Source: Climacium dendroides
Lineage: Eukaryota; Streptophyta; Bryopsida; Hypnales; Climaciaceae
Direction of reading: 5' to 3'
Length of the DNA stretch: 64,000 bases
Assembly: GCA_950106755.1 (NCBI GenBank)
Contig: OX467083.1
Location: forward strand, 161,501-225,500
In this document: piece after piece, positions 701 to 26,250 of the stretch
How positions within the stretch are numbered: position 1 is the first letter of the stretch
Layout: the number at the start of each line of letters is the position of its first letter
The notes under the pieces: model-generated
Told to the model about the DNA's origin: nothing
The model's database searches: none
What the model saw: the letters and a program-made list of their open reading frames with translations, nothing else
Translations under genes and position numbers: made by a program

Positions 701-895
701 GCTAGCGTGCGAGCTTGGAGCGGGGAGCTTGTGAGCGGGGAGCAGGGAGCCTATGAGCGGAGAGCATGGAGCCAAAAATTTCCCATTTTTTTTCCATTTT
801 CTTTTTTTTTGGCAAAAAATATTCAAAAAATTGATTTATTTTGGCTGTTTAGGGTGAATTTGGGACCTATGTCCGTGTACCCCATGACCGTGGAT
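701..895 (+). repeat. Left terminal inverted repeat of the giant element
   Basis: Begins with the 18 bases GCTAGCGTGCGAGCTTGG, continues through GAGC/GGGAGC-rich sequence and a T-rich tract, and ends with CCCATGACCGTGGAT at 881-895. The reverse complement of 26128-26250 contains the same blocks in the same order. The left copy is longer because of extra GAGC-type repeats and a longer T/A tract. Confidence 0.6.
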
Positions 896-1237
896 GTATA
901 GATGTTTATGCAAATTTTTAATCTGTTTTTGTAGAAAACTGGGCAATATTGTCTTGTGAACATTGTCGTGGGAACTCTTTACCGTTTTCAGCACTCATGA
1001 TACTCAGCGTTGCCGTACAAGCAGGAATTTAAAACATTTTGTATTGCAAAGTTTCTTGCAATTAAAAATAACGGCAAAAACTTTAGAGGGTTTGGGGAAG
1101 GTATTGGCCAAAATTGATACGTCAGTGGAAATATGGATGGAACTTTTGATGGGAAAATTTGGCATGAGAATTTTGCAATTGTAATATATAAAGAAGAGTT
1201 CATTACAACTGAAGTGCATACAGAAACGTGTCTATGC

Positions 1238-4200
1238 CTATTTTGGAAGTGTGATCAAGGCAGCCTGAAGTAGCAACAACTTCAATTCATTGAAGCTACA
1301 GCTTGGTGCATGAATAAATTTGTCTTCATTGACATCCATCTTGCAAAAGTACCTGTACAAATAGTACAAGTGTTTGCAGTTCACGTACTGCTGCCGACCT
1401 CTAATTGCAGAAACTGCCATATTCACAAAGTCTGGACATGTGCATGTGGGAAATTGGCCCATTGTAACTCTATATGTATTTTTGTTAGAGTCTGACCCTG
1501 TCTCTAACTCCACAATTGCACCAAGGCTTGGAAAAGGGAGCAGTGTTACTCCCAAAATTTGTCCTTTAACATTGCCTGCGCTTTTCCACTTGTTCCGTTA
1601 CTCGGGAGTAGGCGCATTTGCATTCCTTCAAACTGCTCTGTTGTTTCTCACTATTGGATACACATCTGAGTTTAGTGGCGGAGGGTTGTCATACAAAACC
1701 GGCTTGAATAGCTTAGACATGTAGAATAACCGACGTGGTGATAGAATTGGTTGTTCTTAGAGGTGAAATCCAGCATGTTGCAGCAACAAGGTCTCTTCGC
1801 GGATTAAGTTTGTTCCAAAGAAAATAGGCCAAACTTCTGGCACCTCTGGCCAATCCAAATCCCATTTGCGCTTTGTTCCCTTCACGCATCGCTCAATATC
1901 ATCCCAACAGAACCAAAAATCAGCCACCACCTCTCGCTTACTACCATATTCTTCTTTCCTGCCCCGGTAAGTAGGAGCTGGAGTTCCCTTCTTTCCTTTT
2001 GCAATCTTGCTAATGCACTTGATGTTAGACCTGGACTGCTAAGCTTGACATCTTGCGTTGGATTTGTAGCTGATTCTAGCAATGTGCCAGTTGGATGCAT
2101 CGCAGTCGCTTTCAAATGCTACATTCACATGCCTAGAAGTCTTTGCTTGAATTTGCTTACCTTTGTCTGGAGAAGATTGAGAAGCATTTGTGGTGGATCG
2201 TGTTTTGACACGGGGTTGGGAAAAATTGATCTTGTCTAGTCTGTGTGAGTCTCCTGCATCACCGATGGGCACATCCAACTTCCTCTTAGTACTTCCAAAG
2301 ATTTCTTCTCCTTCCAAGTGTGGCACTCTAGTTCCCATGTCCTCTGCCCCAGGCAATGTGTTTAGTGCCTCTGCAATTTTTTGGGGGTCTCCGCTTCTTC
2401 TTGCAGCTCTCAACCTCAACTCCCCTTTTGATGGTCCTGATCCCACTGCAGAACCTTTCAAGTATGCACGGTAGTTTGTCATTTGCATCCAAGCACGGAT
2501 ACTGTCATCACATGTGGCATCGAACAAGCTGTTGCCTCGCTTCCCAGACATTTGTAACCACTTGTTATGCACCGTTTCGGATAGATTGCATGATGGCAAA
2601 TCCAACATCTCCTCCAAATTCAATTTCTGAATTTTGTAATCAAAGGTATAACAGAGTTAATAACAAATATTCACCACCGTTGTAACTTGTAGCATCTTCA
2701 TAAATAATTTTCATTACTTTTATAGTTCTATACGACGGAAGACAAGTACTGACTTCTGATAGTAGAAATCTATTGCTACCGCCGAACACAACACATCTAG
2801 CCTACTTAAAAACCCAAACCTAAAATAACTGAAAACAATTATGAAATGCAACTATCAAATCAGGTTTAGGGACACAAGTTACAAGAATCAAGGGGGTCCC
2901 CTCCCCACCTCCGATACATGCCTTGGATCCGAGGCACGTACTGGAGGTGGGGAGGGGACCCCTAAGTTTTGTTTCCTAAGAGAGAAAATTTCTCATATTT
3001 TATCAAAAAAATTTGAGAGAACTATAACTGTTGCCCCTATTAAAATTTAATTTAGAGTCTTCCATTTAGAAAACAGATAAGGCCTCATCCAATGGACTAT
3101 TCATGTCTCAAATCGAAGGCATGTTTTCCTACTGTGTGAAGCGTCCCAACTTCTTGATAAATAGAAATAAAATGTTCAACTTAATTAACAAAAAGAAGTT
3201 CAGAAAAAGTTCTTTATGAAGTACAAAGAACATCATCATGCAAAGTAAGCCAGAGATTCCTAAGCACCTAAACACATTTGTGGGAAAAATTGACTCACCA
3301 AGTCCATGAAGCCTCCCCATTGACGGTATCTGAAATGCCAGAAAGCAAGCCAATGGTCTAGGTGATGTAAGCCTTCTTCGTTGGCCGCACCAGATGACAA
3401 CCACCAAGACCGTATTGCGAGATAACGGACCAGCCTCTACTTGGTCCATATTCTTTGAATCTTTGTATTGCTTGCACAAAGTTAAATGTTGTTGTTGAAA
3501 TACTTCCTTGATGTACTTTTGTGTGTGCTTGTGAAGAGAGGTACTCCAATGCAATAAGCATGTCCGCTCATGATTCTCCATTTCAACATTGGCAAAACCA
3601 GTGCCATACACTATCCGCACTGCATTCCAATTGGCCATGGCACTATCTGCCATGAATCCCTTGAAGTTGGGGTTTGGTACTCCATGGTGTTGCATAACCG
3701 CGTTCAAGCTCCGCCAAAACTGTACCTGCACTTCGGTATCTTCGGATTGCATATCGCACAGTGCAATCGTCATCATCTTTTTGTAGTTGGTATTATACAC
3801 GTGGCAAGCCATTGTGGTCCACTCCTTTACTCACTTCACGTGGTCAAACATTAACCACGCATTCTACAGATTCCCATCCGGTTGCATTCGCTTCACGAGG
3901 TCGACTCCACTTCCTGGTCCCTCGGTGAGCATCTTGAAAATGTAAACCTTCTCTTTGCCTTGAACTGGGAAGATGCTGTCATGTATGAACTCAAACTTGG
4001 ACTCCTTCTTCATGGTCATGATGTTGTCAATTATCCCTCCTTGGTTGTTTGAGCGGAAAGAAGAGATGACATTTCAAATACTTAGACTACTCAAGTATTG
4101 GAAGCGGTCCATGACCTCTTCCATTTCGTCAGCTTTTAGCATTTGCTTCTCTCCATCTCCATTGTGGAATAGATAGCTTCCGAGGAAGTCCTTACTAGTT

Positions 4201-5460
4201 GAGAGAGTGATTGCAGAGTTTGTGGCCGTGGGTGTTTTTGCCATTTGTTCTGCAATGAGTCCGTGTATTAGGGTGGTAGAGTCCCTGTACATGCCTGTAG
4301 CAACCGGGTGGCCATGCTCTCCAAAGTGAATAGCCACCCTCGTCATTTCAGAGTTTTTAGAATACACAAAATATATCCTAGCCTTGCATGCGCCTAGACA
4401 CTAGGGAGCCAACTTGCAAACCTTGCACACTAGAGTGGAGTCCTTTGGAGGGGCTTCACCGGGGGCGAAAGAAAACAGTGTAGCCACTCCACTCAGTTTC
4501 GTTTTTCTTCGAAGCTCTCTTCATGTACTCACAATTGGCATTCTCACAAGCAAAATGGCCAGCACAGTAGGACTTACAAAATGTTAGGTTGTCGGAGTTC
4601 TGGATATTGGTAGTCACAAGCTTGCACCATGGATGTCCATCGTAACGCTTGTCCATTCCCTCCAAGTTCTTGGCTCCCAACGAAGATGAAGATGCCCCAC
4701 AAGGAAGCAATTCGAAGATGACATCTCCGTTGAAAACTGCTGGAAGGAATGGAACTCTTTGGTGCTTCACTGTGCTCAAATCCATAGCAGACAACTCGTT
4801 CCGAGAGCGCTGCATACTACCAAGTCCCTTCAGATACTCCATAATGTTTTTCCTGGTTTCAAGAGGATGGGGCGGTGGGGAGAGTGAGAATGAGGAATTG
4901 GAGAGACTTCTTGACAAGATTCTACATGAGGATTTTAGCATAATGGACTGGACAGATGCCATGCAAAATGAACCCTCCTCTCTTTGAGCACTAATATTGG
5001 GGGATTCACCTTCAGATTCACTTGGCAACTCTATGATTGGATCTAACTTCTCCTCTTTCACAACAAAAAGCTTGGAAGGCATATATAGCACACTTGGAAC
5101 ATCTGTCGACGGACTGGGTGACATAGTGTGAGCAGTGACTGGCATATTCACGGTAGAATTATCTGACTGTCGACTTTAGATTTCTGTTGACGCACCTAGC
5201 ATGGAGAGTGGAAGTCCATATGCTCTGTAATTTCCTGGACCAAGATACCAACAATGCGTCCCATCATCGTCAGACCTCACAACCGGAACAGATTGAATCA
5301 CTTCGCCAGTTTTGGACATTTTCTCCTCCTCAACGTAGATGGACGTTTCTACGAACCTAAAACGGACGTGCAGAAGGTGACTAGGAACTCTAGCGTGACC
5401 ACCATGAACAATTGGGAACACTACATGTATATCATAACCGTCTACTCTAATGGAAGCCAT
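1238..5460 (-). pseudogene. Decayed MULE-type transposase gene
   Basis: Reading leftward, several blocks fit one Mutator-like transposase. At 4456-5151 there is a Cys/His zinc-binding region (NLTFCKSYCAGHFACENANC), in the style of the WRKY-GCM or FLYWCH fingers seen in MULEs. The block 4394-3560 stays in one frame and carries DDE-like motifs (IALCDMQSED, FKGFMADSAMANWNAV) followed by a Cys/His patch (RTCLLHWSTSLHKHT). The block 2623-2039 (NLEEMLDLPSCNLSETVHNK) is unassigned, and 1555-1238 carries a SWIM finger (CTCPDF...NCKHLYYL), a hallmark of MULE transposases. An intron probably begins at the GTGAAG donor at 4457. Within 4394-3560 the only breaks are two TGA and one TAG, with no frameshift. 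Exact exons and the true start are not certain. It lies against the left inverted end of the giant element. Confidence 0.65.
2892..2962. repeat. Palindromic hairpin 1
   Basis: An inverted repeat centred on GGATCC. Each arm is GGGGTCC, then 15 bases (left copy CCTCCCCACCTCCGA), then a 13-base block ending in the centre. The arms differ at a few positions (CGATACATGCCTT against the mirrored AGTACGTGCCTC). It shares its constant blocks and spacing with the hairpins at 13334 and 13941 but has different variable bases. It lies inside the transposase pseudogene. Confidence 0.8.
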
Positions 5461-5520
5461 CTTTGCAGCAAAAGGAGAATGTCAAGGAACAAGGAGAAGC
5501 CCAAGCAACCAAGAAGATGA

Positions 5521-6893
5521 GCTCCACAGCAAAAAAGTATGGGTTCTCAATGATAGTGGTGCATCTTTGGGTTGTCCTATAGCAATCATATGTTAAAACC
5601 GATTAGCAAAATCTTAACACCTATTTGCAACATCTTTGATTTAATTTGAAATGATATGGCAGTTGACATTGAAGAAAATTAATTAGTTCAAAGGTCATTT
5701 CAAATTCTTACGTGATTGCTAAGCACAAGGAACACTCTAACAATATAGTGATGCAGAGAAGTATGCCTCCCAAATGAATATTGGGAACAGTACATTTAGA
5801 AATCCAATCAAAATTAATTACTTTAATAATTGAAATGCTCCTTACAAAAGTACTAGCACATATAGCTTGATATGAAGAGGCGAAATTGAATCACAAAGAA
5901 ATTTTGGTGACAATATATACTGGAATCCACTCAATAGAAATTAGTTTTGTAATTAAAACCGCTCCTTAAAAAAGAACTTGCACAATGAGGATGACATGAA
6001 TATGCATAATCACACCCATCAAATTCTATTCCTTAAATTAATGAATGGCATATGTTGAAATTAATAATTATGCTAGGATGCTATTAAATTTACTTTTGGG
6101 AAGATGTCATGAAGTAAGGCACTTAGGCACAGCGAAATATTAGTGATGATGTGCAATACAGAAAATTTAGTCTCTAATAACACGGGGTACTAACCTCCTA
6201 AACAAAAAACTTTGCCAATATAGAGAAATTTTTTATTACCATAATTTGATGACATAGCTAATTTATAAACTACATTTTCACCTTGGACGCCTTCTTCATT
6301 TTAAGGTTCTGATTTAGTCAATTAAAATACCCATACCATAATATTGATTATTGTCTATACAACTAAATGCATACATGGTACACTAAGAAGTTCGTTTATA
6401 TTCATCCAACAACATTGAAGGCACTTGGTACTTTATTTCATAGATTGTAGGGTAAATTGCATGAAATGAAATCCAAATTTAAAATTCATGGTTTAAGAGC
6501 CCTTCAAATTCTAGGCAACCATAATTGGCAGAGCTAATTAAATGGGGAGCAATTCATGAATAGAGCAACACTAATAAGGATTTTTGGCACACCATTAGAG
6601 GGAAGAACAAGTACTTTGTCAAAGTGAACGTTGTGCATTGAGAAAGTAGTTTCACCCTGTCAGGGTTTAATTTTAATGGAATCGGCGGTGCCCTCATGTG
6701 TACTGACAATCCTATTATGGTCAAGGCCAACCTATCAAAAAAGGATTTGATGGCCGACGTCCTTCATAGCCAAAGGCGCCCACAAATGAAGCAAATTCGC
6801 ATGTGTGTTGTCATTGTAGATTCAAATTTAGCGGCTATTGATAGGAATGCTTGGCCAAACGTATAAGGCTTCATGTCCTTCCTTTAGTTTTCA
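5521..6893. other. AT-rich stretch with no recognisable gene
   Basis: About 1.4 kb of AT-rich sequence with no long open frame and no repeat boundary that I could define. It lies upstream of the transposase pseudogene and may hold its promoter or 5' exons. Confidence 0.4.
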
Positions 6894-7316
6894 TTGTCTT
6901 CTGGTTGTTTTCAGTTCTGTAGTATAGTTGAGAGCGACGATGGCGATGCCCTCTCTTTTTCCTTCATGCTTCTAGGGTGCGAGGTTAGTGAGGTTGTTTG
7001 TGTGAGGCCCACACAAAGAAGAAAGAGACCAAGGTCCTTTTACTTTTCTTCAGCTAGAGAACTAAAGTGGTCGAGGATGAAAAGAGGTATACGAGGAGCG
7101 CCAAAGTCCGGGGAGACATCGTCTCCAGATCTTCGTAGAGTTCTGCAGTTCGAGAGCGGGAGTATCGTCGGGCAAGAGGATGCCCCTGGTGAAAATGTCC
7201 AACTTGTTGGAGAGGCTTCAGTAGACAGTTTGAGCTCTAGACGCGCGTGGGAAGAACACAGTCGACGTCTCAAATGTAAGCACATCATCTTTGTGTTTTC
7301 TTTAAAAACTACTTAG
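6894..7316 (+). CDS. Hypothetical open reading frame, 140 codons
   Basis: Not recognised. The frame begins with an ATG and has a basic patch (RPTQRRKRPRSF) followed by a Ser/Glu-rich segment; there is no membrane segment or catalytic motif. A GTAAGC sits in the frame near 7275, which could be a splice donor, so this may be an exon and not a whole gene. It lies inside the giant element, between the transposase relic and the A-family solo LTR. It could equally be a chance frame. Confidence 0.25.
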   Translation: MSSGCFQFCSIVESDDGDALSFSFMLLGCEVSEVVCVRPTQRRKRPRSFYFSSARELKWSRMKRGIRGAPKSGETSSPDLRRVLQFESGSIVGQEDAPGENVQLVGEASVDSLSSRRAWEEHSRRLKCKHIIFVFSLKTT

Positions 7317-8327
7317 CTCCCTTGGTTTCTTTCCAGAGAAAGAACTGTCTTCACTCTATTCTTCTAAAGAAAGCTTGTAGAGTCATGTGGCCTCCTTGTT
7401 TGTTCATGGAACAAAGTTGGAAGGATTGCAATCACATGCAAGTATAATGAAATTCACAGTAATAGTTTAGAAGAGGTAACTACAGGGTTCATGGATGTGC
7501 TATAGAAGTTCAAGAATAGAGAGACTTCATTCGAAACAACTGTAACTCAAATATCTAGAACAACGATCGTGAAGAAAAACACTGTCAGTTTTTTCTAGAG
7601 TAGATTTTAAATGCTAAAATTAGGGACCTTGGAGACATGCACATACATAGTACTGGGTTTCTATGAGAGACCAAATGACAATTTCAAAATAGCCTTGTAA
7701 GTGCACCCTGTAGAATCCAAGTAGAATCTGCAGCTTGTAAGTTCTAACGCACTTATAAATTTCAACCACATTAGTATTGCACTCTTTCTGTCAATACGAG
7801 AATGTTCCTGTTGTTATTTCCTATATGGAAAAACTCCAAAGAATGAAACTAACTTTCGTACTAGAATTCAGAAGACCAAAGGTTAGAATACTATGGCTTG
7901 TGAAATTCGAAAAAGCTTTGGCAACAGAGTCGTTTTGAATCTGAATGTCGTTCTCCCTGTGCCCCTCTTTGTCCCTATTTCTTATATCACATGGAAGGTG
8001 ACTTGAATTTTGTATAGCATTCAAGGTAAGTGTTTCAACATGCAGAAATTCTCTTTTGGCAAGTGTCTTCACTAAAGCTCTATAGAGACTAATGAAAACA
8101 AAAAATTTGTAAATCTCTTACAGTATTCAGGGTGCTAATATGGGGATGACTTGAGGACTAGTCCCTACACTTTGAAGAATTAATATACTTTCACAACCGT
8201 AAACTACAGAAAATAGGATTGTCGATGAGGAGCGGATTTGCACTAGTCGAAATAAAATTCAATATGTGAAAGTTTTCAAACATATTCTCGTGAGCACAAT
8301 TTCTTGGGGCTCAGTTCAATCTTTTTT
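7317..8327. other. Intergenic stretch, nothing recognised
   Basis: About 1 kb without convincing coding sequence or repeat structure. Only short chance frames are present. Confidence 0.4.
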
Positions 8328-8642
8328 TGCACGATGGACGTAAGTGAAAATCTCCTGCTTGTAACTGATCAAAGAATGAGGCCCATTACGATTTAACGCG
8401 AACTCTTGGTATTGATCGTGAATGCATACATTTGATCTCCTAGCTAGCTTATGTAAGTTTGGAAACCACACATTCTGTTTCAAGCACTGCAAGGACATGT
8501 GCATTCAATCGCGCTCGTTGAGGTACTATCATGTGTAAAACAGAGGTAGCTAGCACTACAAATTCGATCTTCTTGTTGGTTGCTCTGTTGGAAATGTGTG
8601 GATGTGATCAATTAGGTGCTTATATGCATGCAGAAATCTCTG
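8328..8642 (+). repeat. 315-bp inverted repeat, left copy
   Basis: The reverse complement matches 13606-13920 along its whole length, with scattered substitutions and equal length (315 bp each). The outer edge reads TGCACGATGG and the inner edge ends GCAGAAATCTCTG. The sequence inside each copy is not repeated elsewhere in the window. The pair encloses the A-family solo LTR and one hairpin, and the second hairpin begins 21 bp outside the right copy. Confidence 0.85.
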
Positions 8643-8813
8643 TTTACCGACCTCATTCAACCGGAGATTTTTATTGAACTGGCTCATGCATGGGGCGGGA
8701 CAAGCGGATGGTGTTATGGGTCATTCGCCGTCTCCCTGTACCTTGGTGAAACTAGGATCCCAATTTCTTAAGTTCGGCAAAAGTAACCAGCAGTCTAATT
8801 TAGAATCACTTAT

Positions 8814-11800
8814 TGTGGGAATCCGGAATCCGGAAACGGATCAATAATACAAGAAGTAGGTGCGAAAAATAAAAAAAAATAAAAAAAATTTAGTTAGAGC
8901 GTGATTTTTTGGACCAGATAGCTTGAATTAGGAAATAAGCGTTCCGGCACAACCCGTAACCGGAACTTATCCGGATCCGGAATCCGGACTCACCCGGAAC
9001 ACAGGAACCTACCGTATAGGTCTCGTAGCTACGGAAGTAGGATATCGTTAATACAACGGACCTGTAGCCGTTGTCCTTAAACCCGTAAAAAGACGGTTTA
9101 GTATTTAAGTTGTCTTCCTAGGGTTTTCCTCTTCACTTTCCTGTTCTGTGCTTCTGAGACTGTTTGTGTGAGTAGTTGAGAGAAAGAGTGGTGAGTTAGC
9201 GACTGAAGTAGAGCTACTTTTCTCTTGTTCTGACTTAGATCTTATGGCATCCGGACCAGTACGGAAGGTAGCAGTATCTGCCCGAGTTATCTCTCCGGCC
9301 ATTCCGGATAACTCGAAACTACACAAGTAGTTAGAGGAGGACTTAACTAAGTTAGGATGTGTCGGTCTACTACACCGACCATGGAACCTCAAGAGTGAAG
9401 ATATGATTCAAGAGCTACTTCACGGTGTTTCAAATCAGTATGAGCTCACTTTGAGAGGGCAGCTAGTCGCGTGGACCGAGGACATCTGGGCGGACGTCTA
9501 TCAGTTCCGGAAGAGTGGGAATGGGTTAGCATCGAGGACGGACCGTTTTGTAGCTGGAAAGTTCACTGGGTCTGCAAACCCTAAGGACGGATTCGCTATC
9601 AACGAATGCAAGGATGAGAGACATAGGCGGATACTAGAGTTTCTGATTCCGATCTTGTATCCGGAAAAGCCAACACGGGTTACCATTACGGTGGCCAATA
9701 TTATTTTGGGGGCTATGGAGAACCGGGTAGTACACTGGGGTAGAGTCATAGCCGGGATAGTGGCTAAATTAGCGGATCACGTGACCTGAGCAAAGGCGAG
9801 TCCAGTTAGCACCTACTTGTTCCATCTGTACCATCAACAGGAACTTTTGAGTGCAGCGGAAGTAATCCAGTATGACACCGGAAAGGCGATCCTGTCATAC
9901 GGACTTTCCGGGGAGGAGGCGGAAGATCCGGTCGAGTCAGATCCAGAGGAACTTCCCGAGGAATGTTTGACCGATTTGAGGACCAAGAAGAGGAAGTCAA
10001 CCAATCCGGGGTCGCGATCCAAGCCACAGACGATGGAGAGGGGGGAGTCCAGCAAGGGACCTGAAATGGAAACGGAATCCGCATTTTTCAATGCGGGGCT
10101 CGAGTGGATACGTGAAGCTAAGGTACTCCACGACAGTCTGGCGGATTTGGTGATAGATACCGCGGAAGTTTTGAAGGTGGAGCCGGATCAGATCGTGGAA
10201 GCTGTCAAGCGATTGCCCAAGCCGGAAGATCTAACGAAGAAGGAGGAGCGGATCTAGGAGTTGGAGGCGGAACGGAACCAACTCCAGGCCCGAGTGAATT
10301 GGGCGGAAGGGGAAATGGCAACTGCAAAAGTGAAAGAGAAAGAGGCTCTCACTCTGGTCAAGAATCTATCCGGAGCAGTCAACATCAAAGCCGACATCAT
10401 CACAAAAGCTGCCTTGTTTGACTCGAAGATGATATCAGAAGGCCACATTACCAGAACCAAGGTAGTAACCATCCTCATAGACTTCACTGCGAGGATAGAG
10501 CGAGTTTTGAAGGAGATCCAGCAGTTATTGGCGGCTATCGACCCAAACCATGCGATGGATTTCTCCACCTTTCCAGAACTTCCTTTTGTCTCAGGTACCC
10601 TAGGGAAACCAGTGGCGGATCGTGCAACTCGGATGGAGGGACTGAGGGGGATACTCACACCAGCCGAGCCTTCCGCCAACAAAATGCGGATGATGGAGTT
10701 GAATTTGAGGCCAGCTTTAGAACCGGAACCTGAGTCCAGCGTGAAATCGGTTCCGGTGCCACCCAAATTCTCAACCCCGGAAGTCCCCAAGTCCCAAACA
10801 ATGCCGAACTTGATGACCGGATCATTCAAGGTTCCGGGACAGCAAGTCAGGGGAGACTTCATCAACCAGATCGGTGGAATGACCAATCCGGCTCGGAAAA
10901 ATCCGAAAGGATTTGTGCACATGCAAGAGACCACGCCGGAGAAAAGAAGCGAACCCGCAACATTGGAGGATACAACGCCAGAGAAGGAGAAGGAAGTTCA
11001 AGTCATCGAAGATTCTGAGGAGGAGAGTGCCCACTCCACTTCCGGAACCGAAGACGACAGCGATCCATCTCCCGCAACGCGCCATATCCAGACTCGGGCC
11101 AGAGCAAAAACCACGCCAACAAAGAATACGAAGGGGACGCCTACCAGCCAAGCGGGGAGCCACTCAAGGAAAGGACGGAAGCCAAAATATTAGAATTCGT
11201 AGGAGAAGAAGTATAGAATCCGGATCGGGTTTTCGAGCATGGACCCGGTTTCCGGAATCTTAGGCGGATAGTCAGAAAATCCGGCAATCTCGGACGGTAG
11301 TTAGTAATCTTTCCGGATATCCCGGGGATTTCAGTGATTGATTGGGTTTTTAGGATTTCCTTTTAGGATTGGGCTTTCAGGCTTTTAGGCTTTCCTTTTA
11401 GGCTTTTAGGATTTCCTTTTCAGGCTTTTAGGAGTTGACTTTGGATTTTTGTGTTAGTATTTTAAGGGCAGGCAAGTTAGTTGTCTGCCATTCCATTCTA
11501 CTCCATTCTGTTTTAGTGCTTTCACGTATGTATTACAATTTTCTTTTCTTAATCTAAGTCAGCTAGGATACCTCTAGCTGCACTTTTGCTTAGACAGGGT
11601 CTTTTGGCTGAGTGTATGCATGTGTATGTAACCTTGTACTGGAGAAAGAGAAGGGAGGGAGAGGAGGAATCCGGATCTTGGGCTACGGATCTCTTGGTGT
11701 TGAGCTGAGTGGGAGGGATGCGGGCTGAGTAAGGGAGTGCAAGTGTGACGTGCTTTTAAATTGCCGGAACGGCAATCCGAGTAAGAAGCTAGAGGGCCCT

Positions 11801-13920: not shown

Positions 13921-13940
13921 CTACATTTTTTGAATGAAAT

Positions 13941-14074: not shown

Positions 14075-14429
14075 TTAATTTCAGGCATGTGAATATGTCA
14101 CTGGTTTTCTCTTGGCGCTCGTGACGGTCGCGGCGCTCGCGATTGCAGTGTGGCGCTTGTTGCAAAATAAGTGAAAAGGTCATTTTTTGTTGCTCTTTAG
14201 TAGGTCCAGCGGGGGTGCACTAGATGACCTCTGAAAATTTAGGGATCCAAGGCACCTCCCATGGTTTAGGATTTAGGGCCAGGGTTGTCATATCGGACGG
14301 GTCGAGGTGATCAGACGGGACGGACGGACGGGCAAACCGGAGCGGACATCCGGATGGATCAGACAGTCCGGACGCCTTTGGGTTTAGAAATTTTCCAATT
14401 CACAATTCTTTGCCCCACTGTCAATCCAT

Positions 14430-14772: not shown

Positions 14773-15015
14773 ACTTGAATCAAACGCCATTGTTATGAGG
14801 GATTCCTCTTTCCCAAGGATAAGGAAACCATTAATGGAGCCAACTCTTCATTCGAGTCGAGAAATGTCTTCAAGTCAATGGCTGCATTAAGGCTCCAACT
14901 ACTTTTGGATTTCAAAGAGAATGTGTGGAAGCGTGCCTCTCCCTTCTTGGGGCCGGACTTTTCTTCCTTGCCTTCATGGGGCACTTGAAGATTAGGATGC
15001 ACCCCAAAAAATAAA
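14684..15015 (+). repeat. Direct repeat inside the hAT-like element, copy 1
   Basis: About 330 bp that recurs at 17815-18145 in the same orientation with few differences. The shared segment contains AATCAAACGCCATTGTTATG. The duplicated block starts in the GC-rich array and ends in an AT-rich tract (CCCAAAAAATAAAT). Its short reading frames are too small and repetitive to call genes. Confidence 0.8.
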
Positions 15016-15563
15016 TCTAAAAATTGAAATTGAAATTGCAAAGAAGAAGGACAAAATTGGTGTGAGTAGAATCCCAAGGGGTTTGGAGTCAAGGTATATA
15101 TTTGTTTCAATTCTAATTCAAGGATTCATTTTTCATTCTTCTTAATAGAACCTATTTGGGATTTAGGATTTGAGGTTTACAAATCAAATCATAAGAAACT
15201 TATACTTTTTTAGTTTTTTGTTTAAGGTTTTATTTTTGAAATAATTAGCTACAAGGGTTTGCATTGAAATCAATTGCGATTTTTTTTTGGAAGGGGGGGG
15301 GATGGGATCCTAAAGGGTTTTGGAATTCAAATCAAATACTCCTTAAGTTATTTTGGATTCAAGTTGAACGGGTTTTTTTGGATTGGGGAACCCCAAGCGG
15401 TTTGGGATTGAAATGAAATATTAGTCAAGTTATTTTCAATTCAATCATTCAACTAATAATTTTTTGGGGGAATGAAATCGTAAAAGAATTTGGAATTCAA
15501 ATGAAATCTCCTTAAGTTATTTTGGAATTCAAGTTAAATGGGTTTTTTTTTGGATTGGGGAAC

Positions 15564-17300
15564 TGTAGTATAGTTTTTTCTAAGACAAAACCAAGGCAAT
15601 TCCAAAAAGGTTCGTTCAAGGGAAAGCTCAAATTAGCTTAGTGGCTAGTTAGCTAATGTCACTTTGTAGGTAAATTATGTTGTTAATCTTAATGTATTAA
15701 GGTATTTGGTATATTTCATATTCTATTTAGGTATGGGAAAGGAGTTCTCTTTCTAATTTCCGTCCAATTATAAGTATAAATTTCTAACCACTAAGTCCGT
15801 ACCAGTCTTATATTAAAATAAAATGTGGAACTAAATGTATAAATTAAGGGAACTTGCATCCACAAATCTCATACTTTGAATTCACAGAAATATATTACAA
15901 ATATATTTATTTGCAACCTGCATCTCCCAAGATATATATTTGAACTTTGAAAATTCGGTTTAACCGAGAATTCTTTAATTATTTTCACAATTATCGTTTC
16001 AACATCTAAGTTGCTTTAAGCGCTAATGACTCAATTACTTGAAGTAAATGTAACACATATCCTTTTTAGGAATTGAAAACAACCAAGGACATCGCTTTAA
16101 GCGAATACATTAATACCCAAATGCTTTAAGCAATTCTAAAATTTCCCTTAAGGGATATACAATATGCTTTGTTAAATTATTTAAAGAGCTTCGAATTCTT
16201 TCCTTTTCAAGACTCCGGTCTTCATTCGATTTTGTTTTCTCCTATCTTTAGCTTTAAGCTTCCTCGATATGCATCACCGAGTTATTTTGGATCTCCTTTT
16301 TTCTCCAATTGCAATACTAACTCTAAATTATGCTTTCTAAATTTACAATTAAATATAAATTCTAATAAATAAAATAAAATAAATTTAAATGCACATTCAA
16401 ACATTCAATCTTGTACACATGTCTTCAATTGGAATACCATTTATTAATTATATGAATAATCATTCAATATTTAGAATGTACATCATTTGTTTGCAATTGT
16501 TCAATAACTTCTATTCACTAGAAATGTAAAATCATTTTCCAACTCAAAATAAATCTCAATCTTAAGTTTTGTTTTAAACATACATGTCCATTTAAAATAC
16601 AAAAATATTCCAATACTTTAATAAAAATAATTACCGATCGATGGTAAATTATTAAATTTGAAAATAAAGTCCAATCTCTGGATCACTCAAATCCAAATCA
16701 CTCCTTGGTTTATAAACAATTTCCAATCACTGGAATTATTAAGTCAATCACTAACTTAATATTTTATTTCTCTTCTACTTCAAATTTTGCTTTGAGCATT
16801 GACATAAAAATTCTCTTACGAGATAAATTATAACCGATGAACAAAATCCACTCCACACATAATCCAATTCTCTTAAAGAGACTTTCCAAAATAAAAATGC
16901 TCAAGGCAATAAATAATCCTCACGATTAAACTTCATGCTTTTAGCAATAAATACCATCACTTAAGTGATTAATCCACACAAAAACGGAATAACATCTATG
17001 AATCTATAACACAATGCAAGAAAAATGTGACCTCACGTCACTAACACAAGAGAGAATTAAAAAAAGAGAGAGAAGAATGAAAGAAGAGAAACTATTTATC
17101 ATGATCCTCCTTAAACACCCCTTCCAATCTCTTGATAAAACCCCGTCAAAGTCCATAACCGCTCAAGCCAAAAAGTCTTTTCACACTTTAACTTCAAATA
17201 TCATCACATTGACACTTAATTACCCAAAACTTAAAACATATAATCCATTTCACACTTAAAAAACAAAATTTAACTAAAAAATAAAATTGTCTTAACTACA
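15564..17300. mobile_element. AT-rich solo LTR nested in the hAT-like element
   Basis: Starts TGTAGTATAG, ends CTTAACTACA, and is flanked by perfect 5-bp duplications GGAAC (15559-15563 and 17301-17305). Removing it with one duplication restores GGATTGGGGAACCCC, which also occurs uninterrupted near 15380. The ends are TG...CA with an inverted TGTAGT/ACTACA. There is no pol or gag frame, and the sequence is far more AT-rich than the other LTR families here, so it belongs to a different lineage. Orientation is not determinable. Confidence 0.85.
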
Positions 17301-17570
17301 GGAACCCCAAGCGGTTTGCAATTGAAGTGAAATACTAGTCAAGTTATTTTCAATTCAATCATTCAACTAATAATTTTTTTGGGGAATGGAATCGTAAAAG
17401 AATTTGGAATTCAAATGAAATCTCCTTAAGTGATTTTGGAATTCAAGTTAAATGGGTTTTTTTTTGGATTGGGGAACCCCAAGCAGTTTGCAATTGAAGT
17501 GAAATACTAGTCAACTTATTTTCAATTCAATCATTCAACTAGCAAATATTTTTTTAATGGTGCCCTATTG

Positions 17571-17610
17571 GATTTAGGGTTTTTAGGGTTTAGGGTTTAG
17601 GGTTTGAATT
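17571..17610. repeat. Short interstitial TTTAGGG-type repeat
   Basis: A few contiguous plant-type telomere units (GGGTTTTTAGGGTTTAGGG and onward), too short and too interior to be a chromosome end. Confidence 0.8.
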
Positions 17611-17745
17611 TGGCTTGGAGGGAGTTTAAATTTCCCTTGGAGGGAGTTCAAATTTTCCTTGGAGGGAGTTCAAATTTCCCTTGGAGGGAGTTAAAAATTC
17701 CTTTGGAGGGAGTTAAAAATTCCCTTGGAGGGAGTTCTAGTCTGT
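17611..17745. repeat. Minisatellite of about 23 bp, six units
   Basis: Six successive copies of TTGGAGGGAGTT followed by AAATTTCCC or AAAAATTCC variants. It directly follows the telomere-type repeat. Confidence 0.85.
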
Positions 17746-17814
17746 CACTTGGATAACTTCCCGCACATACGCCCAGGTTAGGGCAGGGACTCGAATGTCA
17801 GGGCAGGGACTTGA

Positions 17815-18145
17815 ATGTCAGGGCGAGGACGTGAATGTCTGGGTGGGGATGTGAATGTTAGGGCGGGGACGAAGGGGCGCGGACGTGAAGAGGCGAGCAT
17901 GGGACTCGAATCAAACGCCATTGTTATGAGGGATTCCTCTTTCCCAAGGATAGGGAAACCATTAATGGAGCCAACTCTTCATTCGAGTCGAGGAATGTCT
18001 TCAAGTCAATGGCTGCATTAAGGCTCCAACTACTTTTGGATTTCAAAGAGAATGTGTGGAAGCGTGCCTCTCCCTTCTTGGGGCCGGACTTCTCTTCCTT
18101 GCCTTCATGGGGCACTTGAAGATTAGGATGCATCCCAAAAAATAA
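17815..18145 (+). repeat. Direct repeat inside the hAT-like element, copy 2
   Basis: The second copy of 14684-15015. It differs by scattered substitutions such as GGATAGGGAAACC for GGATAAGGAAACC. Confidence 0.8.
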
Positions 18146-19654
18146 ATTTAAAAATTGAAATTGAACTTACAAATAAGTTGAAGAGGAATTTGAAATTATG
18201 CACTATAAGGTTTTGGATTTATATCAAAAAACAAGATACCCCTTTTTCTTGAAATTCAAATTAATTAATTTTTTTTTGGAATTCTTGCAATACAAACTAC
18301 AAGGATTTAGATATCAAAAAACAAATTAAACATACTTTATATTTTTTTTTAGAGTTCTAATTGAATGTTTTTATTTTTGATAATGGAGGCTATAAGGATA
18401 TGGAAATTAGATTTTACATCAACAATATATTACAATGTTCGCAAATGTAATTGAAAGAATCAAGGATTTGTTTTTGAAAATAGAAGCTACAAGGATTTTG
18501 AAAGGAAACAAAAGGCAAGTTCGAGTGGTTTTGAAGTAAGTTCAAGGTTTTAATCTTGTTACCGAATGCTACAAGGGTTTTGATTTCTTATCAAATAAAT
18601 GTTATTTTTTTTTTAGTTGTAGTTGAAGGCTTCATGGTGTTGGTAAGTTGTTGTTTCAAGTATTTAAAATTCAAATCAAATACAAGTTAAATGTTATGCA
18701 TTTGTTCTTGAAGGGCTTTAATTTATAAGTATGGGTTATAAGAGTTTTGAAATTCTTTCAAATTTAAGTTAATATTTTTGGGTTCCACTTCAAAGGTTGA
18801 TTTGTATTAATGGAAAATAAAAAGATTGGGAATTGAAACCTTACCCAAGTTATTTTGGTCTTTCTTCTATTATGACAATTGTATGAGTTCTGTAATTTAA
18901 TGAAGGAATGTATAATAAGCAAAGTAGCAAACAACTTTGAATGCAAAAGAGCATGGGCCTATGGTAGATTGCTATAGGCACCTCAAATTTTGCCTTAAAC
19001 CATGGATTGTAGCATGCATGAAGGAATGTCTTCGAAATAAATAATACTCTTTAATTTTAAATTTTAAAAAAAAAATCGTATTGTAATTACAAAATAAAAG
19101 CTAATCCTGAGACATTGTATGAATGAAAGATTTAAAAGTTCTAAACAAGACATCTAGCTTATAAATTAGAAGATCAACGTTCTATTTTAGTAATTAATTT
19201 GAAGAATATGAATTCTTCATCAAATGAAATCCGGAAAAATATGGTTTGTACAAGGGTCAAGGGCCTTCTTTTGTTCCCAAAGAAATGAGTTCAATTTGAC
19301 TCCAATTTATGTAAATGAGATTCACATGAACAAGGGTCCCTCCTTATTGCCTATAAATTCAAAAGAAATTAGTATTTGTTGGCCTACAATGCAAAAAGAA
19401 TATGGTGGAATTGAATGACGGCTCCTTTATTGGTTCTTAATAGCAAATGAATTAAATTCATTTGCCTTCAAGGGAAAAAAATACAGATCCATGAAACAAG
19501 GTTGAAGGTTCTTCTTTCTTTACTTTTAAGTTTACAAGGAATTAGTTACACTTGACCCCTCTGGAAAAAGAATATGGTTTGGTTGTACAAGAGCCCCCTT
19601 CATCCCCCAAAATTGTTTCAGTTTGACTCCAATTTTAAAAAATCGTCCGCACCT

Positions 19655-19820
19655 TGACTATTTTCGTCCGCGCCCTGTCACAGTCACGTCCCTGCCCTCA
19701 CCTGGCGTCTGCGCCCTGTCACAGTCACGTCCCCACCCTGACCTGGCGTCCGCGCCCTGTCACAATCACGTCCCCGCCCTAACCTAGCGTCCACGCCCTG
19801 TTATAGTTACGTCCCCGTTG
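19655..19820. repeat. GC-rich minisatellite, right subterminal
   Basis: About four units of roughly 45-50 bp built from CACGTCCCCGCCCT and GGCGTCCGCGCCCTGTCACA. It reads as the reverse complement of the word family at 14430-14772. Confidence 0.75.
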
Positions 19821-20158
19821 TGGATCCTACTTGGCAGGCAGATGGCGTTAATGTGGTGGCCACATCACCTATTTTTTCAATGAAAAAAAGTCAACTTCTT
19901 GTTGACCACATTGGACGGGCGAGACCTCTATCGGACAGGCGAATCGGACGGGCGAATCGGACGGACGGGCGAACCGGACGTCCGTCTAGTATGACAACCA
20001 TGTTTAGGGCCCTAGTACTGCCAAAAAGATTAAGGCATTGTAAATGAAAGACAATATTATAGATGTACATGCGTAGAGATGCCTAGTCCAAAATCTTAAT
20101 TGACTTTGTTGGAGATGATCTTCACATTTATTTTATGTTTTAAGGCTTGCTAGTTTAG

Positions 20159-20707
20159 ATGTTTTTTTATATCCGTTTAAAAATTATATCTAACTCTATC
20201 ATTGGTGACTATCTTCAGACAAGACGAGGCCAAGAAAGAGCTTCACCCACAGTGACACCTATTCAGACACCAGTTAGTGTTGAAGCAGAATCATCTCAAC
20301 TTCTTGCACCATTGCAAGAGACTGAGATGGAGGTGTCAATCGAGTCGGAGGACAAGAACATTGTCGGTGATCAACCAGAAGACGAAGAAGTATTGATTAC
20401 TTTTGATGATGTCCTAGACGCTGTGGACAACTTCCATGACACATTTGAGACCACTGTGCAGAGTCAAGCGTGTATTCAAGGACCTCAGAAGCGTACACAC
20501 CACCATTCCCCACCATTAGCATCAGCTGAGACGGACGATCCAAAACAACCTTGTCGAACCTTTTCGGAATTCCTACCATCCGAGACTGGTGGCAATCCCT
20601 TGGGTATAGAGTTCTGTGACTGCACGTGTAGTAGTGCCCGGAATTTTGGAGATCCAGTCTGCATCTTTTTGAGCTCAGACTCGGATGAAGATGTAGAAAT
20701 TGACTGA
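20159..20707 (+). CDS. Probable 5' exon of the ParB-methyltransferase gene
   Basis: An open frame of acidic, low-complexity composition without recognised domain. A good splice acceptor (ATCTTCAG) precedes 20219 in frame, so the real exon probably begins there and the upstream ATG is not the start. The frame ends in a TGA at 20705-20707, but a GTAGAA donor after GATGAAGAT (20691) would splice in phase to 20913, where a clear acceptor (TTTTAAACTTGCAG) lies. That would make it the N-terminal tail of the next gene. Alternatively it is a separate small gene. Earlier exons were not found. Confidence 0.4.
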   Translation: MFFYIRLKIISNSIIGDYLQTRRGQERASPTVTPIQTPVSVEAESSQLLAPLQETEMEVSIESEDKNIVGDQPEDEEVLITFDDVLDAVDNFHDTFETTVQSQACIQGPQKRTHHHSPPLASAETDDPKQPCRTFSEFLPSETGGNPLGIEFCDCTCSSARNFGDPVCIFLSSDSDEDVEID

Positions 20708-20912
20708 CTCTAGTGAGATACAGGGATGTAGTTTATGAGATAGTTGCATTCCCTTGACATTGGTTTTTCCATGAAATTCTATTACAAGAATGATTGATTG
20801 TATTATTTATTATTTCATTATGGATTTCATCAATTTTTCAATGTCAGTATGTCTCTACATTTATCTTGGCTATTTCAAATGTAATAAAACCTCTCATGTT
20901 TTAAACTTGCAG

Positions 20913-23900
20913 ATGGATGGCACCCCATCAAACTTGTGGCGTGAAGAGACAAATCTCCAGACTCCAACTACAGGAGACTCAACGCAACCGGCCATTGCAG
21001 GGGACGGAGAAAGGGAAGACGAGGGTGACATGATGGAAGAAGACGCACCGGTCATTGTGATGGAGGGAGATGACAAAGATTTTTTGGAAGAAGAACTCCG
21101 CCAGTACTACAAGGTGGATTTGGTGAAGTCTATAGCGTCCCTTCGAATGAAGCCGGACCACCTTTTCAGAATGAACATCCCACTCTGCCGGATGGTGTCC
21201 ATGCCCATCGTAAGGCCTACCTTATCATGCGACCTCGAGTTCCTAGAACACAAGTTCAGCAAGGGCTACCGCGACGGGGCAACGGTTTTCTACGTGACAA
21301 CAACTGACGAGGCTGGAGAGAGCTTCCAATTCACTGAAGGGGAGATGGAGGCGTGGGGGCCGCTATGGAAGGAAAAGAATGACGCGTTCAATGCCTACGT
21401 GGAATCCGTGCCCAAACTCAGGTTTTTAAAAAACCTGAAGTTCTATATTTGCGATGGAAACCATCGACTCATCTCTTGGATGAAGTACATTGGAAAAATG
21501 CATTCCAATGACATTGAATGGCATTACGCGGTGGATGCCATTGTACTTGACACAAAGAAGAGGACGGAGCTCGTCATGCATGTTATGCATGACATCAACA
21601 AGTATGCTTTCTGATACCTTCAAGCCTTTCTTATGTACTTTTGCTTTACATTTTAATTTTTTTTATGTGATTTTTGGATGCTGCAGATGCTGTGATGAAT
21701 CTCACTGTGATTAATTGTTTTCCAGATCCACCGAGGATTCTCACGTTAAAACCAACTTGGTTCACACACTCTATAGGGTGCAAAAGTATGGCCTTCTTCC
21801 CATTGAGCGTTTTCAAGAGATGTTGAGGCCTTCCGAGCTTCGACTGTGTGGGGCACTGAAACCGAAGCTGACGTGGTATTCTATGCCACTACAAGTCTTC
21901 ATGGCATTTGTATTCGGGGTAAGGATGCCCGGGCTTGTTGAATTTGATGTTTTATATTCTCTTCTATTTTATACTTGCTTTATTTGTATTTGAAGGTGTT
22001 ATTTTTCACTTGCTTCTGCAGCAAGAGGTTGCGCAGTCTGCAGATGCAGCTGGTCGCAAATACAATGAGGTGACAGCATAGGAAGACCGTTGCCCCATGG
22101 AACTAGCGCAAGCAATGCGAGCTGGGGCAAACGAGAAACTCGGGAAACTAAACGTCAAGATGTCCAAGTTGGTGGCGGTAGCCAATCCGGTGAACAAGCT
22201 AGGGTTTATTGAGGAGGTACCTCCATCCCCTTGATAGCATTCATATGACATTGCGATTAGGAAGTCTGAAACAGTGACTGACTTTATTTTGTTTTTTAAT
22301 ATCAGATTGAGAGACATTGTAGTGCCAATGAAGTGCCAGAGATGACTCTGGAGAAGCTACAAATGGTGGCCACTTGCAACACCACGGCAGAGCACAAGAT
22401 CAAGTTCTTGAAATGGTGGAACTCATCAACACCATCTCGACATGCCAGGCGATTCCCGCCTAAGCCAGTTTCTGAGACATTACTTGGTCCCTTCTTGAAC
22501 CGCTGTGTGTGGTATGCTGGGGTAAGTGATAATCTTTGTATAAATTTTTAGACGTCATTGGATTTGGATTTTCTTTGTTTAGAATTTCTAGAGTTCATTT
22601 TCTTTCAATGGATGATAAATTTTTGTTGTTCTATGTTTTCTCAGATCGAGGATGCAACGGTGAAGTACTTTGACGACGTTGTCCAGCACGATAGCATTGT
22701 CATCAATATGAACGTCCCGCTGCAGCCGGAGACCTTACAAGAGTACCTGGAGGGATGGAGGAGGAAAATTTGGGATGATGGATATATGAACTACCTCAGG
22801 GGATCAAATTATTTCAAAAAGAACGACAATTTCAAGAAGCATGAGGGGTCCGAACAGGCAGTGAGAAGGGTGCTCTATCGGTATGTCTTACACCACTTTT
22901 GTAAGGCTCATTCAAAAATGCTAATTAATTGGGAACCAATTCAATCTTCCAAGACTTCCATAGCCTGCCTTCAAAGTAGCATATAATTTGTTTCCAACTC
23001 AGGTTCACTTTATCTTGACTCTCATTTGGTATTTGTGATGGAAATGTCTAGATTAAAACTTCACGTGTGGCTCACTTTTCCTTCAATGTTACATTTTTGG
23101 GGGCAATTCAGGTATTTCAAGTTTGAACTTGAGGGAAAAGGTACAATAAAAAAGGATGACTTCCTAGAACTCCTTAGGAGTTTTCTTGATCGCCATTCGG
23201 CAACCTGCATGTACACTTCGAGTCAACTCCAAACATACACCATGGCTCATCTCAGCCGTGGCGCGTGGTACCTCGATTGCCCTATTGGATACACGCATCT
23301 ATCGGAGCAAGCCCTCCGGGGTTCTTTGGAGGGCATTAGTGGGGTTGACTTAAATGTCGATGAGTTCGCAAGTCTCAACGCAGTTCAAAAGGCAAAGGCG
23401 ATTGCCAAGAGGGACAGAGCTGACAGAAAGAAGGCGGCTAAGCTACATTTGGCGCTAGAAACCAAGTCAAAGAGGAAGGCAGACCGCTTGGCAAAGCAAG
23501 AGGAGAAGGAGAGGGAGAAATTGAGAGAGAAGGAGGAGAAAACGAAGGCCAAAGGCAAGAAAAAAGATGAGGGCGATACCGGGGTTCCATTGTCTTCAGC
23601 AGTTGACCAGAGCTCACAGTTGGTGGAAGGAAGCCACACCGGGATGAAGAGGAAGGCCATACTTCCAGAGTGGACGGAGAATATGCTGACCCAAGGCACA
23701 CAAGTCATGGTGATAGACGACGACGACGTCAGAATGGAGGAGCTCATCTTAAACGTGTCCATCATTGATATTATGGAAGATTCTGAGAATTCACCACCAA
23801 ATCCGTATGTTGAAGTCATGGACTTCATTCAAAAGGTATCGTCAACCTTCAAATGTATTTGAATTTTCCTCTCTTTCAATTTCTGGATGAGTTTCTTGTT

Positions 23901-25365
23901 TCTTGTTCAATCCTCTTGTGGCATGGTAAACTTCTTCATTGCAGGTGAATGCAGGGAAACCGCGCTCATTCGACAGCAGGGTCACCAAAGACCCTTTGGT
24001 GGATCTAATCATCTTCGATTGCCAAGAGAACTTGCCTGTGCCTCTTGTCTCAGAGAAGCGTGTTCCCTCGTGGAACGTGGACCCATCATATGCTGGAATG
24101 CAAAATGCATTCCAATTTGCCGAGGAGTATTTACAAGACAACGGTTGTCTCCTGGTGTTTCATTCCTACAGCGTTCAGTCTCGAAGTATGTTTGCAGGGT
24201 TGATGAAGATTTTCAAGAATTTGAAGATGAAGAAAGAGTAGTTGGCATTCAACCAATTGGACCTCGCGTCGGGAATAAACCTTGGCGAAACAGTGAGTTC
24301 TCTAATTTATTTTTCATATGATTTTAGGTTTTCTTTTAGATGTGATTCTTGGTTTGATATATGGTGTGATTGTCAATGGCATTCCCCTCTTTACTAATTA
24401 ATTTTTTGATGCAGACCGTGAAGTTCGGAGTCACCCTTTTCATAAAGGACGTGGGTGGAAAAGTGGCATCACTTTTCCAATTTAGGTAGACCACAGCCAT
24501 GACCAAAGCAAAGTGGAACCTCCAGAGGAAAGACATGGTCATCAATTACATTACTGAGGAGACCATGATGGTAAACAAGGAAACCAAAGCGCCTTGGCGT
24601 GGACCCCGAGAGAAAGATGTGAGGTTCCTACAGTTTTTCATCGAAGGCTGTACCGATGAAGATGATGTAGTTCTCGACTGCATCGCTGCTACAGGTATAA
24701 TACTACTCAGTTTCAAGAAAGAGTTCTAAAATGAATTGTTTATTCTTGTAAAGATGTACTTAAATATTGATCACCACATGCTTCTATTGCAGGGGCGTCC
24801 ATTACGGCTTGTCATGGGACGGGCCGCCATATTGTGGCCTTGGAGAAGGACATCGATATCTTCAATATTGTTCTGAAGCTGATGAAGAAAGCCACTCCAG
24901 TAGAAGGAGTGACTCAAGCTCCAGTGGAAGCTATTGCCGCCTTTGATCTTGATGCCGTACACGTCGAACCAATGGTGTTCACACGCACCGTTAGACCTAG
25001 TAAGTAAGTTTTGCTTTGTAATGACAACATTTTTTTGTTTTGTAATATACGTTGCATACAAAGAATTTCAAGGACCTAAACCTTCTATGTGTGGTTCTTT
25101 AAGGAACGAAGCAGTGAAAGGAACGCATCCAATGAAGAAGATTCGAAGACATATCTTGAGTCCGAAGAAGTCTTACGAACTTCCAGTGTATGCCGAGAAG
25201 ATGGCGACACAATATGAATAGCATGGTTGTAGAGATCCTAAACCTCGCATCCCGAAGTATGCTGCAAATGTGGTTCATTTTGTAGACGTTTCAGCTTCTG
25301 AGGGTGAGGAGACGCCAGAGTCGTCTTCTAGTGAGGTTTCTATGACCGAGTCCACCGCAACTTAG
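20913..25365 (+). pseudogene. ParB-like domain fused to beta-class DNA methyltransferase, ten exons
   Basis: Ten phase-consistent GT-AG exons: 20913-21601, 21726-21918, 22022-22216, 22306-22521, 22645-22880, 23112-23835, 23945-24292, 24415-24694, 24793-25003, 25104-25365. They total 3354 nt (1118 codons). The N-terminal part holds a ParB/Srx-like motif (YICDGNHRLISW). A Lys/Glu-rich coiled coil follows at about 23390-23580. The C-terminal third is a DNA methyltransferase in the permuted beta order, with motif IV (DLIIFDCQENLPVP) ahead of motif X/I (VVLDCIAATGAS, then GRHIVALEKD). Such fusions are known in bacteria and phages. Motif IV lacks the usual DPPY, so N4-cytosine or N6-adenine activity is doubtful. 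Four in-frame TAG codons (22079, 24239, 24487, 25219) interrupt an otherwise frame-perfect gene, suggesting recent loss. An acceptor directly before 20913 shows the true start lies upstream. The gene ends just before the right end of the giant element. Confidence 0.72.
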
Positions 25366-26127
25366 ACTCATAAGATTGACGTATTTTATGAGTTGAACTA
25401 TGTGTATTCCTTTTATGTTTATTTGATTTGTATGTGTTATGGCTACAAATGAGGTGCAATGTGCTTCTTGCTTGATACTAAACTTGCCCTAAAAAATGTT
25501 ATGAAATATACACCCAGAGAGAAACAATGTCTATTGGACAAGTGTGGGAATTATAGAATTTGGAGTTCATTTACAACTGCAGGATTAGGTACTCTGTAGT
25601 GGGGCAAAAATAGAGAAAACAAGGTACACTAAATTATTTATTGCAAATTAGTGAGTAGCGCGAAAAAATGTGATTGGAATAAAAATGGAAAGAAATTATA
25701 ACTCCTTCCAATGGTAACTCCTACATAGTGGACAAAAAAATGGAATGCAAATAAATGTAGTCACCTTTAAACGGCGATAGTCATGATATGAAGTAGTGAA
25801 TAAAATGAGGTCACACTTGCCCTTCTAATGAACACATAGATTTGAATGGGAAGACAAACAAAGCTCAACAATTGAACCACTCTACCTAAACCCCCAACAA
25901 TAAAATATCACTAGTAGATAACATTGCCTTCCTACATCTTTGGCTCATTTAGGTACTTTCACCTTCTTCCAATAGTCCATGTGTGATAAGACACCCTAGC
26001 TCTATTTTATGTGCAACAAAAATCCCTTAAATATAGAAGTATCCTTCATAGTCTACAAATGGCACTACACTCCCTAAATTGCTTTTGCTTTTTTAATCCA
26101 CGGTTATAGAGCCTACAGTCACCCTAA
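25366..26127. other. 3' flank of the methyltransferase gene
   Basis: AT-rich, with no coding frame or repeat recognised. It probably holds the 3' UTR and the space up to the right inverted repeat. Confidence 0.4.
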
Positions 26128-26250
26128 ATCCACGGTCATGGGTTCGTTGCTGATTCTCTATTCAACTTTTGATTTTTGCACAAAATTTTTCTTAAAAAAA
26201 ATTCCCACTCACAGGCTCGCAGGCTCCTGCTCCCAAGCTCGCACGCTAGC
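26128..26250 (-). repeat. Right terminal inverted repeat of the giant element
   Basis: The reverse complement begins GCTAGCGTGCGAGCTTGG, passes through AGCCTGTGAG and an A/T-rich tract, and reaches CCCATGACCGTGGAT, the same block order as 701-895. Confidence 0.6.

Follow-up and report, generated by a model that had tools for sequence, protein, structure and literature searches.

Why would a DNA transposon of a moss carry a gene that joins a ParB-like domain to a DNA methyltransferase-like domain, and what would the protein do for the element? The question is raised by a 64,000-nucleotide stretch of the Climacium dendroides genome (assembly GCA_950106755.1, contig OX467083.1, positions 161,501 to 225,500; the whole stretch is termed the window), in which a reading made from the sequence alone had described a giant Mutator-like element (MULE) with a transposase relic near one end and a ParB-methylase gene near the other. 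The window copy was compared with ten further copies fetched whole (11 copies in all), which identified it as a dead, insertion-swollen member of a recently active family. The ParB-methylase gene of this family is maintained by selection, and its product is predicted from its motifs to be a pseudo-methylase.

A multi-copy Mutator-superfamily element

The element, its borders and its transposase gene lie in the window as follows:
684..693: left target-site duplication CCTAGATCCG, direct repeat with 26258-26267 with one mismatch
694..26257: the window copy of the MULE-type element, complete, with ends common to other copies; 25,564 bp when the two later insertions are counted in
694..748, plus strand: left terminal inverted repeat, beginning CAACKACGCTAGCGTGCGAGC
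1238..2626, minus strand: transposase exon 2, with SCNLSETVHNKW containing the presumed catalytic E and a SWIM-like CxC...CxH near 1380-1445
3299..5460, minus strand: transposase exon 1, with the N-terminal region, GCM-like region and DDE core; stops and indels occur here
26203..26257, minus strand: right terminal inverted repeat, beginning CAGGGTTGCTAGCGTGCGAGC in other copies and TAGGGTT in the window
26258..26267: right target-site duplication CCTAGATCCA, direct repeat with 684-693 with one mismatch

The inverted ends of the window copy matched over 36 nt at 81%, and local alignment of the termini (80 and 81 nt) scored 26, whereas the best score was 16 among 2000 shuffles and 20 among 3000 segments taken at random from the window. 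The similarity is far beyond chance, bearing out the related inverted ends reported at 701 and 26250, and comparison with the other copies placed the outer limits at 694 and 26257, seven bases further out on each side. Terminal inverted repeats, a MULE trait, are thus present and measure approximately 50 bp. Searches of the 412.6-Mb assembly for the ends and for methylase loci, in which the best-scoring candidates were retained, identified at least 41 matches to the left end and at least 40 to the right end with identities of 92-100%. When 40 ends of each kind among the matches listed were paired, with a left-end fragment of 43 bases set aside, 21 inward pairs at 15.9-31.3 kb were obtained including the window, such that the ends are not solely solitary repeats. 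Among the same matches, 19 left and 19 right ends were without a partner, and truncated or nested ends occur, such as L005 where a left fragment is joined to the right end of another element.

The further copies were 15.9-18.4 kb long (n=10), and all ten contained both a transposase gene and the ParB-methylase gene with its ten exons, in intact or broken form. Exact target-site duplications of 9-11 bp flanked 10/10 of them (0-2 bases allowed after the right end), as expected from the 8-11 bp range of MULEs (PMC6446971), while the 10 bp duplication of the window with its one mismatch was negative in the exact-match test. Further copies with the same ends and both genes had been named by the sequence-only reading as things to look for, as had a constant-length duplication at other insertions; such copies were found, with duplications of 9-11 bp. 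Its description of the element as giant was overstated, since later insertions make up about 9.4 kb of the 25.6 kb; the extra length of the window copy is explained by two stretches absent from the other copies plus a small inverted duplication. The element is a multi-copy Mutator-superfamily DNA transposon of approximately 16 kb in most complete copies, and noncoding divergence between copies is about 3-4%.

The transposase is encoded by two coding exons (5460-3299 and 2626-1238) giving 1182 amino acids where intact, which was the case in 3/11 copies with the remaining 8/11 broken, including the window. Among the structure matches, which were second looks at Foldseek matches and cover the families listed, the model of homolog P0001 best matched ISCth4 of the Mutator/IS256 group, which supports a DDE transposase of this type. 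The SWIM zinc finger is common in plant MULE groups (PMC6446971). Of the proposed outward-pointing SWIM-finger transposase relic, the relic and its orientation stood, and the SWIM finger amounts to a CxC...CxH pattern with a weak Pfam match (E 0.37 for the window open reading frame (ORF), none listed for the intact exon). The target-site duplication, the IS256-like DDE fold and the SWIM-like pattern together support a Mutator-superfamily carrier.

The transposase and ParB-methylase genes are divergently transcribed, both pointing outward, and a putative two-exon gene is placed between them. At least 37 methylase loci were identified in the genome, of which 32/37 had an element end listed in the expected place (right for 26, left for 20). 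The surroundings of the remaining 5/37 were fetched and displayed a left end in 5/5 and an outer right end in 4/5, the right-end region of the fifth locus being matched by an inner 40-base piece only. A methylase gene independent of the element ends was rejected as an explanation, as at least one end lies beside each of the 37 loci listed. Adjacency of the transposase was assessed in the ten copies fetched whole, and within these scopes no methylase gene was found without ends or transposase. A Mutator-like element with a ParB-methylase-type gene in its own body is thus supported, with intact copies elsewhere in the genome. Two methylase loci on one contig, C37:27989753 (+) and C37:28009323 (-) in G000, have identical match scores, point in opposite directions at a distance of about 19 kb and possibly represent an inverted duplication.

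Many relatives of the transposase and ParB exons occur in public genomes and metagenomes, with 46-89% identity among the matches listed, and those of the homologs P0001-P0177 that were scanned fit no Pfam family well. To judge from these sequences, the homologs apparently form an undescribed and widespread element group.

The ParB-methylase gene, its constraint and its context

The gene near the right end has ten exons, all on the plus strand:
20913..21601: exon 1, ParB/sulfiredoxin (Srx)-fold domain with CDGNHR
21726-21918, 22022-22216, 22306-22521, 22645-22880, 23112-23835: exons 2-6; in the window, a stop in exon 3
23945..24292: exon 7, with VDLIIFDCQEN at the motif IV position and NGCLLVFHSY; in the window, a stop
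24415-24694, 24793-25003: exons 8-9, with the motif I region DDVVLDC(T/I)(A/T)ATGAS; in the window, a stop in exon 8
25104..25365: exon 10, C-terminus; in the window, an internal stop

The ten exons (20913-25365) encode a protein of 1117 amino acids. The outward-pointing gene was present as originally read, broken by four internal stops in the window, and in 2/11 copies it retained every splice site and contained no internal stop, so that the intact methyltransferase copy looked for does exist; the other 9/11 were broken, among which a third copy had no internal stop and one broken donor. Both genes were intact together in one copy.

The protein joins an N-terminal ParB/sulfiredoxin-fold domain, with the conserved DGxHR of this superfamily in the exon 1 product, to a C-terminal domain homologous to beta-class DNA methylases through the S-adenosylmethionine (AdoMet)-binding motif I region (Pfam PF01555 E 7.5e-5, below the family cut-off). 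Beta-class methylases carry a catalytic DPPY, or more generally (D/N/S)PP(Y/F/W), in motif IV and the signature FxGxG (DPFxGxG) in motif I. In the moss element, the strand VDLIIFD was followed by DCQE instead of DPPY in 10/10 readable copies, the placement being made by eye, and motif I read DC(T/I)(A/T)ATG (DCTAATG) or a variant thereof rather than FxGxG in 10/10, at a site that aligned to (F/N)(T/C)(M/F)GS(G/C) of phage methylases. At each motif site 10/11 copies were readable and the unmatched copy carried a frameshift in both cases. As both signature motifs look degenerate, the protein is predicted to be a pseudo-methylase, in which methylation is doubtful and a DNA-binding role would be likelier.

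Searches with the ParB exon 1 gave 230 relatives at E<=1, the best 120 of which displayed 46-83% identity. The whole window methylase had no match at E<=1e-3 among 5.8 billion proteins, presumably because its relatives are stored as single-exon ORFs. With profiles A2 and A3, viral contigs yielded no relative and PDB sequences no relevant match, and the ParB part had no match in phages, Pfam, PHROGs or NCBIfam. Pfam scans of 74 relatives of the ParB part gave hints only, with DUF1015 in 6 and DndB in 3 (best E 0.02-0.03).

Selection was assessed from pairwise ratios of nonsynonymous to synonymous substitution rates (dN/dS), for which the pairs are not independent; the ancestor was taken as the majority base. 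The median was 0.30 for the ParB-methylase gene (55 pairs; range 0.14-0.52) and the ratio was 0.37 for the transposase (range 0.22-0.60). Since deamination distorts dN/dS, two controls were built for the methylase. Measured against the noncoding substitutions of the element, 381 nonsynonymous (N) and 151 synonymous (S) changes were expected compared to 220 and 172 observed (omega 0.51). This control is imperfect because the transition fraction was 0.87-0.90 at coding and 0.51-0.52 at noncoding sites, and a context-matched control was therefore built from transitions only with rates per CG, CHG, CHH, and A/T context. Using noncoding rates, the context-matched omega was 0.62 overall. Variants shared by at least two copies comprised 44 N and 60 S changes against a neutral ratio of 1.95 and gave an omega of 0.38, and singletons, with 148 N and 99 S changes, gave 0.76. 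The corresponding values with fourfold-site rates were 0.63, 0.39, and 0.79. The ParB-methylase gene is thus under purifying selection, weaker than the simple ratio says, and by simple dN/dS so is the transposase. The constraint falls mainly on changes shared between copies, the older ones that have propagated, which is what a gene needed by a moving element would be expected to show.

Variation among the copies also bears on host silencing. Over the window copy at 694-26257 and the ten other copies, the fraction of sites with C-to-T variants was 0.41 for CG, 0.36 for CHG, and 0.10 for CHH in the right module and 0.37, 0.37, and 0.11, respectively, in the left module, compared to 0.02-0.03 for A-to-G or T-to-C variants. 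Such a pattern is a plant-type scar that marks cytosine methylation at CG and CHG sites, as known from land plants and their relatives.

The introns of the transposase gene and of the putative small middle gene carry repeated palindromes:
2921..2934: palindrome CCTYGGATCCGAGG in the transposase intron, with one mismatch in the window and exact in 10/10 other copies
7078..7275, plus strand: putative first exon of the small middle gene, followed by a GT donor
13383..13396: palindrome core CCTCGGATCCGAGG in a hairpin with 54-bp arms (96%), in the middle-gene intron
14001..14014: second palindrome core, in a perfect hairpin with 67-bp arms
20216..20707, plus strand: putative last exon of the small middle gene

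The exact 14-mer CCTCGGATCCGAGG occurred 28 times over the 11 copies (1-3 per copy), with one position in the transposase intron and up to two in the intron of the middle gene, some of them lying in perfect hairpins whose arms reach 67 bp. No exact occurrence was found in the 38.4 kb of the window outside the element or in 31.1 kb of other flanks. The targets of ParB proteins are palindromic parS sites, which makes the palindromes of the element candidate ParB binding sites.

Possible functions of the protein

The favored reading, to which roughly even prospects are given, is that the element encodes a DNA-binding accessory factor with a degenerate methylase half that keeps it mobile against silencing. 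The transposase, encoded on one side, would move the element, and the ParB-methylase protein would bind DNA of the element itself, with the intronic palindromes as possible loading sites and its degenerate methylase half as a DNA-binding or scaffold module. Once bound, the protein would keep the element expressed and mobile despite host silencing. Anti-silencing is proposed by analogy with VANC of the Arabidopsis VANDAL MULEs and agrees with both the scars of methylation and the repeats in the introns. Of the two roles offered by the sequence-only reading, countering host silencing is compatible with the CG and CHG scars and may apply, and marking of the element's own DNA is weakened by the motifs. 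A bolder proposal is that the protein is a second, independent VANC-like machine in which a ParB clamp with a pseudo-methylase loads at parS-like intronic palindromes, spreads, and excludes the CG/CHG methylation machinery; this is regarded as quite unlikely.

Several points weigh against the accessory-factor reading. The placement of motif IV, made by eye and spacing and covered by no profile match, is the weakest link of the pseudo-methylase argument: MAFFT aligned the phage motif IV with a downstream DP(A/T/P/S)Y rather than with DCQE, and because this site reads DPPY in copy g3_46547, the methylase may not be dead in every copy. The palindromes could be independent fold-back elements, the comparison outside the element spanning 69.5 kb. 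Simple dN/dS exaggerates constraint (0.30 for the methylase compared to 0.62 when context-matched), and the context control covered the methylase, the transposase being judged by the simple ratio.

An active N6-adenine or N4-cytosine methylase by which the element marks its own DNA, a role that has been suggested for the Sola1 protein of Ectocarpus (PMC12477816), would account for the significant methylase homology through the AdoMet-binding region, the purifying selection, and the DPPY of the one copy at the MAFFT-aligned site. This reading is nevertheless considered unlikely given DCQE after VDLIIFD and the altered glycine pattern of motif I in all readable copies. Also unlikely, though slightly less so, is a transposition cofactor that would bind the ends, help assemble the transpososome, or nick DNA through its ParB domain instead of acting in anti-silencing. 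The occurrence of the gene in each of the ten copies fetched whole, a constraint equal to that of the transposase by simple dN/dS, and the nicking reported for the bacterial ParB-methylase Bce_0392 (PMC5512222) agree with such a cofactor, whereas the location of the palindromes in introns rather than at the ends weighs against it. That the gene is a functionless passenger captured once in the style of Pack-MULEs is very improbable; broken copies are frequent for both genes and the singleton variants are near neutral, but the 230 ParB-exon relatives indicate a long-kept gene, and a dead passenger is rejected by the constraint on variants common to two or more copies.

Surrounding sequence and known systems

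Two later insertions interrupt the window copy:
8799..12505 (roughly): later insertion 1, absent from the other copies compared, containing retroelement-like ORFs
14281..20002 (roughly): later insertion 2, which has inverted subterminal repeats of its own as well as tandem arrays

In the second insertion, a GC-rich unit forms tandem arrays in inverted orientation near both ends, and the insertion is perhaps a non-autonomous DNA transposon. Elsewhere in the window, the ORF list contains minus-strand ORFs at 33600-35534, resembling a transposase of the CACTA/TNP2 type, and long minus-strand ORFs at 44814-48242 and 61983-63377, resembling gypsy-type retrotransposon pol. Repeated gag-like ORFs form two families, judged by visual likeness, at 9331-11193 and 51880-53901 and at 42708-43949 and 59337-60827, with one copy falling within the first insertion of the element.

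ParB-methylase genes in giant DNA transposons have been published, namely in Sola1-1_Ec32 of Ectocarpus, along with green and red algal precedents cited in the same paper (PMC12477816; its references 50, Iyer 2011, and 51). The general idea behind the sequence-only reading is therefore not new. Sola1-1_Ec32 is a giant DNA transposon with a ParB-like and N4C/N6A-methylase accessory protein on the strand opposite the transposase, of 1104 amino acids compared to 1117 in the moss (PMC12477816). The likeness is one of architecture, as the carrier is a brown-alga Sola1 rather than a Mutator element and its methylase is predicted to make N4-methylcytosine (N4mC) or N6-methyladenine (N6mA) (PMC12477816). 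The bacterial Bce_0392 likewise fuses a ParB domain to an adenine-methylase-type domain (PMC5512222), whereas the moss protein has 1117 amino acids, ten exons, and degenerate catalytic motifs. Mobile elements carrying DNA-methylation enzymes also include retrotransposons, such as DIRS with Dam-like enzymes and SymbioLINE and SymbioDIRS with DNA methyltransferases (DNMTs), which are of other enzyme classes (PMC5890265).

VANC carries DUF1985, in contrast to the ParB-methylase protein, in which no DUF1985 was listed at E<=1 in Pfam scans of two pieces of the window protein covering 1-1029 and two pieces of an intact copy. VANDAL elements resemble the moss family in being Mutator elements with extra genes and intronic repeated motifs that the host methylates, and VANC targets often form tandem repeats, with introns among their places (PMC5735166). 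Anti-silencing is a feature of VANC, and for the ParB-methylase element it is proposed by analogy.

A full-text literature search gave no report of a Mutator-like transposon with ParB plus methyltransferase, and the available portion of a MULE survey mentions methyltransferase nowhere (PMC6446971). As far as searched, the new features are a carrier of the Mutator superfamily, the scars of CG and CHG methylation left by the host, the evidence for selection, the degenerate motifs, and the element-borne palindromes. A ParB-methylase in a recently active Mutator family with plant-style scars points to carriage of the module by more than one transposon superfamily. The combination of degenerate motifs with purifying selection turns the view of elements marking their own DNA toward an alternative, a DNA-binding pseudo-methylase, that the intact copies and candidate binding palindromes make testable.

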